A DNA stretch of 64,000 nt from Labilibacter sediminis (GTDB lineage Bacteria > Bacteroidota > Bacteroidia > Bacteroidales > Marinilabiliaceae): positions 172,062-236,061 of the forward strand of contig NZ_VCHY01000008.1 of NCBI RefSeq assembly GCF_005877885.1. Reading direction: 5' to 3'. Below the pieces are notes generated by a model. It had not been told where the DNA came from. It saw only the letters and a list, made by a program, of their open reading frames with translations, and made no database searches. Positions 33,560 to 37,740 of this stretch are shown here, piece after piece. Within the stretch, counting starts at the first letter, position 1; each line of letters starts with the position of its first letter. The position numbers were made by a program, and so were the translations under genes.

Positions 33560-34318
33560 ATGAACATAAATTTAGCTGTATTAATTGATGGTGATAATAT
33601 ACCATCTGCATATGTAAAAGAAATGATGGAGGAAATTGCCAAGTATGGAAATCCAACCATTAAAAGGATTTATGGAGATTGGACGAAGCCTAATTTGTCG
33701 AAATGGAAAAATATACTTTTAGAAAACGCCATTACTCCCGTTCAGCAATACGGATATACCACAGGAAAGAATGCTACTGATTCAGCTATGATCATTGATG
33801 CCATGGATATTTTGTATTCAGAAAAAGTAAATGGATTCTGCATCGTATCTAGTGACAGTGATTTTACCAGGTTGGCAACTCGTTTAAGAGAAGCCGGTAT
33901 GCAAGTGATTGGAATTGGAGAAAAGAAGACTCCAAATCCGTTTATTGTGGCGTGTGATAAATTTATTTACATCGAAATTCTGAAAACAAAATCTAAAGAG
34001 AAGGGATCTGAAGATGAAAAGGAATTGGACAAGGAAACATTTGATAAAATTAGTGCAAAAGAAATAAAGTTAATTGCCACTACAATTACAGACTTATCTG
34101 ATGATGAAGGATGGGCATTTTTAGGAGACGTGGGAGGTCTATTACAAAAAAAGCAACCGAACTTTGATCCCCGAAACTATGGCTTTCAGAAGTTGACACC
34201 ATTGATAAAGTCAACCGGCAAATTTGATATAGAGCAACGAGAAAGCCAAAAAGGCCGGAATAAATTAATCTTTGTAAAAAATAAAGAAAAGCGCAGCCCA
34301 AGCCGACATAAGGCCTAG
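33560..34318 (+). CDS. NYN-domain nuclease with LOTUS (OST-HTH) domain
   Basis: A 252-residue cytosolic protein. Residues 1-145 form a PIN-like NYN domain (LabA/DUF88 type) with acidic active-site positions in AVLIDGDNIPS, KNATDSAMIIDAMDIL and VSSDSDFTRLATRLREAG. Residues about 165-240 form an OST-HTH/LOTUS RNA-binding domain (GWAFLGDVGGLLQKKQPNFD; YGFQKLTPLIKS). This pairing is known across bacteria as a predicted RNase that recognises RNA through LOTUS. The C-terminus is basic (EKRSPSRHKA). It stands alone, with a possible promoter at 33495. Confidence 0.92.
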   Translation: MNINLAVLIDGDNIPSAYVKEMMEEIAKYGNPTIKRIYGDWTKPNLSKWKNILLENAITPVQQYGYTTGKNATDSAMIIDAMDILYSEKVNGFCIVSSDSDFTRLATRLREAGMQVIGIGEKKTPNPFIVACDKFIYIEILKTKSKEKGSEDEKELDKETFDKISAKEIKLIATTITDLSDDEGWAFLGDVGGLLQKKQPNFDPRNYGFQKLTPLIKSTGKFDIEQRESQKGRNKLIFVKNKEKRSPSRHKA

Positions 34319-35969: not shown

Positions 35970-36755
35970 ATGAAAAAACTTTTACCAATACTTATTTTAG
36001 CCCTTTCAACCTATAACTGTTCCGAAAAAAAGATTGAGAAAAAAGGATTTCAGGTTAGTGAAATTACCGAGGATAAAGACGGACAAAAAGTTGTTGGTCT
36101 TCAGATGGACTCTTTAAAACTGGAAACCAAACCCAGGAATGTTTTATTAACCAATAATCCAAACCACAGGCTCACGCCTATTTACAAAGTCAATTACGAC
36201 AAAAACACAGGCAAACCCTTTACTGGATCTAATTATTACCACACCACATGGGAGCACGATTATGACGAAGGGAATAATTGGAACAATAATTTTATGCCTG
36301 GATTTGAAGCAGTTTATGGATACAATTTCATCAATATCGCCCACTACAACAATAAAACCAATACACAAAATGAGTTCTTTGAGGAGCCTGTTTTAATCAA
36401 AACACTATACTATCCTGCTTTTTCAAAAGACACCTTGAATCACAAACCGATAAAAAGAGATTACTATATGGTTTCGGTTTATGATGAAGACACCAATAAT
36501 GATGGATTTATCAGCACAAAAGACCTGCGACGCTTCTACCTTTTTGATATAAATGGGAACCTGGTAAAACCTTTGGTGCCTAAAAACTATTCGGTAATGA
36601 GTTCGGAATATGATTCGGCCAACGATTTTATGTATGTATTTGCCAGAGTTGACCAGAATAAGAATGGACAAATGGAATATGAAGAGGAAACCCATATCTT
36701 TTGGATTGACCTAAAAAATCCCGAAAATAACGGGGTTCAATATAAGAACCAATAA
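35970..36755 (+). CDS. Lipoprotein with two EF-hand-like calcium loops
   Basis: A 261-residue lipoprotein with signal MKKLLPILILALSTYNC (Cys17). No known family is recognised for the bulk. Two acidic loops near residues 170 and 230 match the EF-hand rule: DTNNDGFISTKDL (D1, N3, D5, S9, D12) and DQNKNGQMEYEEE (D1, N3, N5, E9, E12). The protein is rich in Tyr, Asn and Trp (HTTWEHDYDEGNNWNNNF), as in envelope beta-rich proteins. Calcium binding is inferred from the loops only. It stands next to the tRNA-linked duplication, whose left copy begins 18 bases after its stop. Confidence 0.7.
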   Translation: MKKLLPILILALSTYNCSEKKIEKKGFQVSEITEDKDGQKVVGLQMDSLKLETKPRNVLLTNNPNHRLTPIYKVNYDKNTGKPFTGSNYYHTTWEHDYDEGNNWNNNFMPGFEAVYGYNFINIAHYNNKTNTQNEFFEEPVLIKTLYYPAFSKDTLNHKPIKRDYYMVSVYDEDTNNDGFISTKDLRRFYLFDINGNLVKPLVPKNYSVMSSEYDSANDFMYVFARVDQNKNGQMEYEEETHIFWIDLKNPENNGVQYKNQ

Positions 36756-36773
36756 CAGGAAGAAAACAATTTA

Positions 36774-36831
36774 CGTGTGAGTTTTTTACTCTTGCTCAAA
36801 ACTCACACTCCAAACTGTTTTGTGACCTCAA
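36774..36831. repeat. Left copy of the tRNA-end direct repeat
   Basis: Bases 36789-36831 (43 bases, from CTCTTGCTCAAAACTC to TGTGACCTCAA) are identical to 37261-37303. A less exact part (CGTGTGAGTTT) extends it leftward. Its last nine bases, TGACCTCAA, are the complement of the 3' end of tRNA-Arg. An inner inverted repeat (GTGTGAGTTTT against AAAACTCACAC) can form a hairpin. Confidence 0.85.
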
Positions 36832-36850
36832 GCGACAAATTGTTCTGCTC

Positions 36851-37195
36851 TTAACTTAAGCCCTTTATCATAGCAAAGAGCATCTTCGAAATTTCTTCAA
36901 GAAACTGATAATACCTTCTAAAGTCCTTTTCTTCTATTTGATCTATTTCAAGCAAATAATCCAATATCGCAACGCATTCAAAAGTCGAGCCTCTTGAAAT
37001 AACATAAAAATTACGCTTATCCTTATTGGTAAACCGCCCTGCTCCTTCTGCAATATTAAGCATTATACTGAATGCCGCACGCCTTAGCTGATCATGGGTT
37101 ACTCTATCAACCTTAGTATGAACCAGGAAAGAGGTAATTGATTTGTTAAAAACTTTAGCCTTCTTATAAACTTCCAGTTTTTCAAAATCAAACAT
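36851..37195 (-). CDS. Four-helix bundle protein (23S rRNA intervening-sequence family)
   Basis: A 114-residue all-helical protein of the S23/TIGR02436 four-helix bundle family, the same fold as Avd of diversity-generating retroelements. Typical parts are the N-terminal FEKLEVYKKAKVFNKSI, DQLRRAAFSIMLNIAEGAGR (the family signature SIxxNIAEGxGR) and FYVISRGSTFECVAILDYL. Members were first found inside rRNA-gene intervening sequences of Leptospira and Coxiella; their role is unknown. No reverse transcriptase or variable repeat is nearby, so a retroelement is not supported. The gene is bracketed by two copies of a 43-bp repeat that includes the 3' end of tRNA-Arg, which suggests it came in as a small mobile unit. 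Confidence 0.9.
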   Translation of the reverse strand: MFDFEKLEVYKKAKVFNKSITSFLVHTKVDRVTHDQLRRAAFSIMLNIAEGAGRFTNKDKRNFYVISRGSTFECVAILDYLLEIDQIEEKDFRRYYQFLEEISKMLFAMIKGLS

Positions 37196-37244
37196 GATGG
37201 ATAGTTTGAGTTAGAGTGTGAGTAAAGAGAAACAAAACATTTTT

Positions 37245-37303
37245 TCGTGTGAGTTTATCGCTCTTGCTCAAAACTCACACTCCAAACTGTTTTGTGACCT
37301 CAA
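37245..37303. repeat. Right copy of the tRNA-end direct repeat
   Basis: The right copy of the 43-bp identity (37261-37303) overlaps the last nine bases of the tRNA-Arg gene. The core unit between the two copies, about 472 bases from one repeat end to the other, contains only the four-helix bundle gene. Confidence 0.85.
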
Positions 37304-37366
37304 TGGGATTCGAACCCATATCGCTGGAACCGGAATCCAGTATTCTATCCGTTGAACTATGAAGCC
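37295..37366 (-). tRNA. tRNA-Arg (anticodon CCG)
   Basis: The minus strand folds as a full cloverleaf. Acceptor GGCTTCA pairs with TGAGGTC with two G-U pairs; D-stem GTTC/GAAT; anticodon stem CTGGA/TCCAG with loop TTCCGGT, anticodon CCG; T-stem ATGGG/CCCAT with loop TTCGAAT; discriminator A. It reads the CGG arginine codon. The CCA is not encoded. The 3' end is duplicated 472 bases downstream. Confidence 0.95.
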
Positions 37367-37501
37367 AAAATTTGATGGCAACAAATATAATAATTGGATT
37401 GAAATATCTGTAACTTTTTTACAAGTAGCTGCAATTATAAAATCTATATACAAATTAAGATCACCTAATCCCTCCTTTACTAGGAAATTTCTTATGAAAT
37501 T

Positions 37502-37681
37502 CAACCACTTTGTGGTTGTTAATAATATACTTAATCATATACCCTGCACTTTGTACAGGGCTATTTATATTAATCCTTTCAGGATTATGCCCTTAAAAAC
37601 CACTAAGGTGGTTTAATACGAATAACCTCGGATGTAATCCGGGGCATATTAAAATATAACTCTAGAATCCTAAAGGGATTC
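37502..37681. repeat. Array of six short hairpins
   Basis: Six separate mini-hairpins in 180 bases, each with about a 7-8-bp stem and a loop of mostly 3-5 bases: 37502-37518 (CAACCAC/GTGGTTG), 37542-37560 (CCCTGCA/TACAGGG), 37571-37587 (TAATCCT/AGGATTA), 37597-37614 (AAACCAC/GTGGTTT), 37626-37644 (CCTCGGAT/ATCCGGGG) and 37665-37681 (GAATCCT/GGGATTC). The first and fourth share the CCAC/GTGG core, and the third and sixth share ATCC/GGAT. The loops carry TTT, TTC, TAAG or AAA. It resembles intergenic hairpin arrays seen in Bacteroidota near REP-associated transposase sites; no transposase is present here. Confidence 0.8.
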
Positions 37682-37740
37682 AATTTTTAAACTAACTTAA
37701 AATGCATTACCTGGTCCTTCTTCCAAAGAAATATTTTAGT

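Follow-up and report, generated by a model that had tools for sequence, protein, structure and literature searches.

An S23 gene between two hairpins behind tRNA-Arg(CCG) of Labilibacter sediminis: a probable member of a family of tRNA- and tmRNA-linked hairpin modules in Bacteroidota

In the window, which denotes the whole stretch of 64,000 nucleotides analyzed here, a short unit with a single S23 (four-helix-bundle) gene follows tRNA-Arg(CCG). We consider it probable that this unit is one of a family of hairpin modules found behind Bacteroidota tRNA and tmRNA genes, with or without S23, and that it arrived as a miniature mobile element, S23 being the predicted insertion helper. Our comparisons, all of which are between sequences, indicate that the module begins at the tRNA 3′ end, that the window's site carries no S23 unit in the congeners where it was found, that an S23 subfamily is tied to the tails of many kinds of tRNA and tmRNA, and that modules without S23 stand behind other tRNAs of the S23-carrying genomes. 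The genomes compared were one per species and included many MAGs.

Results

Layout of the unit

The features of the locus are as follows, with the method or supporting match in parentheses.

37294..37366 (ARAGORN) or 37295-37366 (Rfam RF00005), minus strand: tRNA-Arg(CCG), the gene preceding the element (ARAGORN, Rfam)
37226..37293, minus strand: proximal module, a hairpin from the tRNA 3′ end, AAAACAG ... TGTTTTGT (fold -25.9 kcal/mol, z -6.4; aligns with 34 leaders of other loci)
37196..37228, minus strand: second arm ACTCACACTCTAACTCAAACT, from the hairpin to the S23 start (inverted repeats I3 and I4, 22 nt, 77%; own- versus mismatched-locus test)
36851..37195, minus strand: S23 / four-helix-bundle gene, 114 aa plus stop (PF05635 8e-26, TIGR02436 3e-23, PDB relatives 2gsc and 2rld)
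36822..36831, minus strand: distal copy of the final 10 nt of tRNA-Arg, TTGAGGTCAC (repeat comparison)
36755..36821, minus strand: distal hairpin module copy (fold -25.0 kcal/mol, z -5.0; matched by model R1)
36770..36831, no strand assigned: 62-nt direct repeat, left copy (43 nt exact at 36789-36831) (repeat comparison)
37242..37303, no strand assigned: 62-nt direct repeat, right copy (43 nt exact at 37261-37303) (repeat comparison)

On the minus strand, tRNA-Arg is followed first by a hairpin and a short second arm, then by the S23 gene, and last by a 10-nt duplicate of the tRNA tail with the second hairpin behind it; S23 shares the strand of the tRNA and lies downstream of it. A sequence-only reading of this DNA had reported a 43-bp repeat present twice without a difference. 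We found that this repeat is real and forms the core of the 62-nt direct repeat, whose copies are 94% identical and lie head to tail at a spacing of 472. In a gapped alignment, the similarity of the two copies spans the complete hairpin, about 75 nt, and each copy consists of the tRNA 3′ tail plus a complete predicted hairpin. The right copy includes, as reported, the tail of tRNA-Arg(CCG), namely its last 10 bases according to ARAGORN or 9 according to Rfam. The description of the 472-bp unit as holding one gene was likewise borne out, since S23 is the sole ORF between the copies that reaches 80 aa. By eye, none of the 15 ORFs at 32-42 kb that are 80 aa or longer was recognized as an integrase, transposase or reverse transcriptase, in agreement with the same reading.

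None of 200 shuffled sequences was as stable as the predicted fold, for either the proximal or the distal hairpin. A simple terminator scan flagged neither module copy, so a terminator role is suggested by the structure. The whole unit folded with a z of -2.3, and its best structure has the ends as two separate hairpins. Complementarity of the unit ends extends over 22 nt at 77% (inverted repeat I3), and the second arm shows partial complementarity both to the proximal hairpin, in its first arm, and to the distal copy. When the left repeat copy was used as a DNA query against the whole genome, no place besides the window locus was found. An Rfam search over 36500-37700 returned the tRNA and one sub-threshold sRNA match, with no rRNA. 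Elsewhere in the window, a run of short near-perfect palindromes (AACCACTTTGTGGTT, CCCTGCACTTTGTACAGGG, AATCCTTTCAGGATT and others) was seen by eye at 37480-37680, between tRNA-Arg and leuS, and an NYN nuclease-like protein with an OST-HTH/LOTUS domain is encoded at 33560-34318.

The S23 protein and its relatives

The window protein matched PF05635 at 90.7 bits (cut-off 33.8) and TIGR02436, the family to which the gene had been assigned from the sequence alone, at 81.9 bits (cut-off 24). Pfam detected no catalytic domain in it. Ten S23-family hits were found at nine places in the same genome, L009 and L010 being two adjoining pieces. The window copy is the only one of these with a tRNA within 1.5 kb and the only one flanked by a long direct repeat; the runner-up, L006, has 14 nt. 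As judged by eye, the other S23 genes of the genome mostly occupy intergenic positions between low-complexity arrays, and the array on the downstream side is similar to the reverse complement of that on the upstream side. Among such other-branch loci of this genome and its family, the arrays of one locus scored 22.5 with each other as compared with 12.4 for mismatched pairs, and the own partner was best or tied in 12 of 30 loci; these 30 were taken from the 36 control loci and include orthologous ones that are not independent. Loci of this kind, in locus-specific arrays, are L001-L007 and L044-L072. At L001, L044-L046, L049, L051, L052, L054, L059 and L069, one common spacer holds S23 while the repeat words differ by genome; the genes flanking that spacer look, by eye, like methylmalonyl-CoA mutase subunits.

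The database search returned 3427 homologs of the window protein, and the best 120 listed, apart from the query, were 64-88% identical to it. Within the window's family (71 genomes), the identity of every other hit at E <= 1e-10 stayed at or below 42%. The rows nearest to the window protein by tree path are tmRNA-linked and come from Crocinitomix and Cytophagales, with up to 74% identity among the best 80 of 192 stretches. Because these nearest rows lie in Crocinitomix and Cytophagales whereas the window's own family reaches 42% at most, we infer a horizontal arrival of the window S23.

The tRNA-Arg site in relatives

A tRNA-Arg gene with a divergent leuS was found in 14 relatives, seven of them congeners (15 leuS loci with the window, which is L013). 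No S23 was detected by tblastn in 17 tRNA-Arg loci, including all 14 that are leuS-linked; 12 of the 14 sites, six of them from congeners, are informative, L030 being without sequence behind the tRNA and L022, a congener site, having 160 nt only. The tRNA-Arg of an eighth congener (G001) lies elsewhere and is also without S23. Where sequence behind tRNA-Arg was available, it was mostly an ordinary hairpin terminator, as judged by eye. The gene distal to the window unit has no close match in most congeners. In the congener G006, Pfam identified an integrase gene after tRNA-Arg(CCG), and integrase-like sequence was seen by eye after the same tRNA in the congener G002; the two sites are L018 and L034.

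S23 genes behind tRNA and tmRNA genes

The best 80 of 192 related stretches, with one genome scanned per species, gave a set of 79 S23 loci, of which 64 had at least 1000 nt available upstream and were eligible for counting. Among these 64, a same-strand tRNA or tmRNA gene ended within 750 nt upstream of S23 in 49 and within 250 nt in 39, as compared with a single opposite-strand one upstream and, within 750 nt downstream, two on the same strand and one on the opposite strand. In the control, 36 other S23 loci of the window's genome and family, none had a tRNA or tmRNA within 1.5 kb. The targets, assigned for 51 of the 79 loci from the best 80 stretches, were tmRNA and tRNA-Leu (17 each), Arg (9), Phe (3), Met (2), and Lys, Asn and His (1 each).

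No intact tRNA lay within 750 nt upstream at 15 of the 64 eligible loci, or at 28 of the 79 overall, in the same best 80 of 192 stretches. Twenty of the 28 were scanned, and no rRNA family reached its gathering score. The idea that the gene might also be found beside other RNA genes thus stood for tRNA and tmRNA (49/64), but not for rRNA in the loci scanned. In five of the 28 (L083, L084, L094, L118 and L125), the module is immediately preceded by 9-15 nt from the end of a tRNA or tmRNA, and in three (L093, L105 and L111) the RNA gene is interrupted by the contig start. We did not take these displaced ends to prove that a module brings its tail along, nor did we count them as evidence of mobility. 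In the genome of L083 an integrase gene lies between the tmRNA and the module, and in that of L084 the tmRNA is followed by an integrase gene. L148 shows, by eye, perhaps a decayed tRNA, and at L106 the S23 gene lies just upstream of tmRNA instead of downstream. The bins of L131, L134, L093, L105, L107 and L123 are labeled Falkowbacteria, Patescibacteria, Deltaproteobacteria, Atribacteria, Dojkabacteria and Actinomyces; several of these contigs are short, and misbinning is possible. At 12 of the 79 loci of the best 80 stretches, additional copies or fragments of S23 were found close by, and L114 is a head-to-tail array with a 545-bp period.

On the S23 protein tree, again from the best 80 of 192 stretches, 14 target changes were counted among 56 labeled rows, the minimum for the 8 states being 7. 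Target kind is clustered on the tree, with 29 changes over all 9 groups as compared with a shuffled mean of 43.4, and 0 of 200 shuffles as low. The tree has 75 rows but a small number of columns; of its 71 inner branches, 29 are open, and the group that includes the window protein is not starred. L098, L136, L141, L147, L149 and L150 are outside it, and nine labels were assigned manually on the basis of tRNA fragments or incomplete RNA genes. Because target kind clusters, change of target is not free, and we read it as repeated but infrequent, with horizontal transfer.

Structure of the leader and distal copies

The leaders found behind different kinds of tRNA are alike, with AAAACAG or AAATCAG, a GAG-rich arm, a loop, CTGTTTT or CTGATTT, and a CTCACACTC-rich second arm. 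In a pairing test of 53 of the 64 leaders (11 odd or duplicate ones excluded), the outer stem scored 10.26 with its own partner as compared with 7.02 for those of other loci, and the weaker pairing of the second arm 11.87 as compared with 9.74, with 0 of 5000 permutations in either case. RNAalifold gave no consensus pair for an alignment of 35 leaders, which we think is caused by stems lying out of register in the alignment. The order of the leader, arm1-arm2-arm1′-arm2′, would allow two exclusive pairings or a pseudoknot, with possible consequences for read-through into S23.

A distal copy of the module start was found after S23 at 16 of 52 loci, five of them with 4-18 nt of tRNA tail; isolated tail matches of 9 nt at 0.9 kb distance (L074) and of 8 nt (L127) were counted as chance. 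In three cases, namely the window, L075 and L089, each end of the unit has a tRNA tail of 10-18 nt, the 17-nt tail of L089 having no module behind it. An accepted distal copy carrying at least 4 nt of tRNA tail is thus lacking at 46 of the 52 loci. These counts bear on the single-gene mobile cassette that the sequence-only reading had proposed: the S23-free site in relatives and the gene behind other tRNA and tmRNA genes favor such a cassette, but a long flanking repeat (16 of 52 loci) is not a constant part of it. At L075 and L089 we also saw, by eye, that the duplicated tail is preceded by its own reverse complement (GCGGGAG/CTCCCGC and GGAGAGGC/GCCTCTCC) and that both tails begin within the T-loop.

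Modules without S23 and turnover at tRNA sites

Since RNAalifold gave no consensus pair, the search model R1 was built from sequence only, with 35 leaders, of which six came from genomes that were also searched (one each: L073, L077, L078, L080, L083 and L116). All R1 counts are lower bounds, covering the best 150 of the 334-1497 first-look candidates per genome. Within this limit, R1 had at least two matches in the window's genome, which are its two hairpins, matches in 10 of the 11 further carriers of S23 that were searched (none in G101), and no match in any of the 8 congeners. The zero score of the eight congener genomes argues that R1 does not simply recognize tRNA terminators.

In six carrier genomes, 70 R1 matches were analyzed out of 75 (four opposite-strand duplicates in G108 and one without DNA were excluded; eight matches in G087, G088, G092 and G093 are outside this number). 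Thirty of the 70 lie within 300 nt behind a same-strand tRNA or tmRNA gene, and 28 within 60 nt, as compared with a rough expectation of 0.0004 per match if 45 tRNA genes in 4.4 Mb are assumed. S23 is missing from 24 of these 30. No tRNA lies within 300 nt upstream of the remaining 40 matches, some of which are further copies in tandem arrays. In the Fluviicola genome G106, similar modules follow tmRNA and the tRNAs for Met (two genes), Lys, Leu, Gln and His; their identity is 74-89% over aligned pairs, with many gaps, and the tails of the target tRNAs share, by eye, little beyond the last AC or CC. A module that appears by eye to sit between tRNA-Ile and tRNA-Ala, in an apparent rRNA operon spacer, was seen at L257 (G095). 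Truncated S23 pieces follow the modules at L204 (residues 1-42), L219 (residues 1-23) and, by eye, L211.

Two sites allowed comparison between genomes. At tRNA-Lys of two Fluviicola, 93% identity over 172 nt stops at the tRNA 3′ end, past which one genome has a module and the other an apparent plain terminator. At tRNA-His, the downstream gene is common to 6 of the 40 genomes searched, and the spacer, from the DNA of 10 of the 40 and with module types assigned by eye, is of type A (single-hairpin) in G096, G117 and G118, and of type B (double-hairpin) in G106, G120 and G123; in G118 the spacer also includes 1.8 kb of unrelated-looking DNA besides the module. In G124, tRNA-His is followed by a type-B module (89% to that of G106) and then by one of type A (97% over 31 nt to that of G118), and the shared downstream gene is not in the stretch examined. 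The simplest reading is that a module was inserted at the tRNA 3′ end and the older module was pushed outward. The type-B modules are unlike the window type; we suggest that they belong with S23 in one family because of the shared placement, the shared second arm and the S23 genes seen by eye behind type-B-like modules in Fluviicola.

Candidate helper enzymes

Two enzymes were not supported as a constant helper. For reverse transcriptase, RVT_1 was absent from 2 of 10 carrier genomes (G090 and G095) and below the cut-off in a third, and for the Y1 transposase, Y1_Tnp was absent from 1 of 10 (G096); incomplete MAGs limit both results, G096 being the genome of a named strain. RVT_1 is present in the window's own genome, elsewhere than at this locus. 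Genes for tyrosine recombinases use or adjoin the same tRNA and tmRNA sites as the modules, and mobilization in trans is, for this reason, the main rival explanation of the data.

Discussion

In that rival explanation, the module is a minimal attachment cassette moved by the tyrosine recombinases of ordinary islands that share the tRNA and tmRNA 3′ ends. The units of the window, L075 and L089, with their tRNA tails at both ends, would fit such a cassette, as would the integrase genes at tmRNA in the genomes of L083 and L084 and after tRNA-Arg in G006. However, tRNA-island integrases usually serve one tRNA, whereas G106 alone has similar modules behind six kinds of target whose tails share little, and most of the 52 loci have no accepted distal copy with a tail of at least 4 nt; we regard this explanation as rather unlikely.

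Two further explanations do without mobility of the module. The unit may be a host regulatory pair, in which S23, transcribed together with the tRNA or tmRNA, would have a role in RNA maturation and the hairpins would be no more than terminators kept alike by gene conversion. The same strand, the short distance and the recognizable leader agree with this, as does the clustering of target kind on the protein tree, and the S23-related Avd may bind nucleic acid. A host function is difficult to reconcile with the patchy distribution, nothing above 42% being found elsewhere in the window's family, with the 14 target changes, with the truncated S23 pieces behind modules and with the differing modules at one orthologous tRNA, that for His, so that we consider it improbable. 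Slightly less credible still, in our view, is a plain duplication, by slippage or unequal exchange, that copied the tRNA end and its terminator and left a stray S23 between the copies by chance. The near-identity of the two hairpins, head to tail, is what a duplication would produce, and further S23 copies or pieces do occur nearby at 12 of the 79 loci (best 80 of 192 stretches); but a duplication leaves unexplained why 49 of 64 S23 loci lie behind a tRNA or tmRNA with a recognizable leader, and why modules without S23 occur elsewhere. Replication slippage, which the sequence-only reading had offered as its alternative, is ruled out as the whole story by the recurrence behind tRNAs, and is a possible origin of the window's distal copy alone.

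We prefer the hypothesis of a miniature mobile element. The window unit fits the proposed element, as its leader aligns with the family directly behind the tRNA and is absent in relatives. A new module would enter exactly behind the mature tRNA end and supply a terminator-like hairpin, so that the tRNA would stay intact and the insertion would be nearly neutral. Read-through from the tRNA promoter would express S23, the S23 ring may bind the hairpin or the arms of the module, and strand transfer would be carried out by an enzyme provided in trans. If modules landed at one tRNA more than once, tandem copies would result, of which the two hairpins of the window may be a short case. A wider hypothesis, which we hold as a tentative possibility, is that S23 and the tRNA-tail hairpin form a self-contained miniature mobile system without a recombinase, transposase or reverse transcriptase of its own, in which the S23 ring recognizes the hairpin and places copies at mature tRNA and tmRNA 3′ ends. 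The copies with S23 would then be autonomous and those without it the more numerous passengers, and the rRNA IVSs and the operon-gene S23 in complementary arrays would be further branches.

Integration at tRNA 3′ ends normally involves a tyrosine recombinase, and the islands integrating into tRNA and tmRNA genes carry such an enzyme and have their site at the 3′ end of the RNA gene. The window unit shares this site, and a few loci, the window's among them with 10 nt, have a tRNA tail at the far end; in contrast to these islands, it is about 0.5 kb long and has no tyrosine recombinase of its own, and similar modules stand behind many kinds of tRNA in one genome. REP/RAYT systems (TnpA_REP) and MITEs consist of short, dispersed, gene-free palindromes and rarer gene-bearing copies flanked by palindromes, and the combination of gene-free palindromic units with rarer gene-bearing copies is common to them and the modules. 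Placement behind tRNA 3′ ends distinguishes the modules from both. As for REP/RAYT, the window unit has no Y1 transposase, S23 alone lying between the hairpins, and Y1_Tnp is absent from G096, which has the most R1 matches of the 20 genomes searched (best 150 candidates each). Avd forms four-helix bundles arranged in a pentameric ring. One report describes the Avd of diversity-generating retroelements as homologous to PF05635, the family of the window S23 (PMC10053308), but the window unit has no reverse transcriptase.

The closest likeness in protein family is to rRNA intervening sequences, which RNase III removes from the transcript. In one source, the 23S rRNA IVS of Coxiella burnetii is described as an S23 ORF within hairpins, preceded by short tandem repeats, is discussed as possibly mobile and is called selfish, and a Xanthomonas S23 protein is described as four-helix bundles in a pentameric ring (PMC4990558). 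Another reports S23 ORFs in insertions of CPR 16S and 23S rRNA genes (PMC11270868). The unit resembles the 23S rRNA IVS in its protein family, its short length with one S23 ORF, its hairpin or inverted-repeat ends and its place in a stable-RNA transcription unit, and the Coxiella IVS also in short tandem repeats upstream of the ORF. Unlike an IVS, the window element lies behind an intact tRNA, and its relatives behind tRNA or tmRNA, and not inside a mature-RNA gene, no rRNA being present; and S23-less copies of the module lie behind many tRNAs. Among the papers listed in a literature search, largely without subscription journals and preprints, none dealt with an S23 or four-helix-bundle gene linked to a tRNA or tmRNA. 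We file the tRNA/tmRNA-linked unit as a new variant of the S23 hairpin elements.

A large S23 subfamily tied to tRNA and tmRNA tails, with S23-less hairpins behind further tRNAs in its carrier genomes, gives the question of what S23 proteins do a concrete, testable setting. The unit would be a small element that lives behind the most constant genes of the cell without breaking them, and, if S23 alone drives its movement, it would be a new kind of element. The carriers include the named isolates Crocinitomix catalasitica ATCC 23190 and Fluviicola chungangensis MAH-3, which allow direct tests of the role of S23 and of IVS-like mobility.
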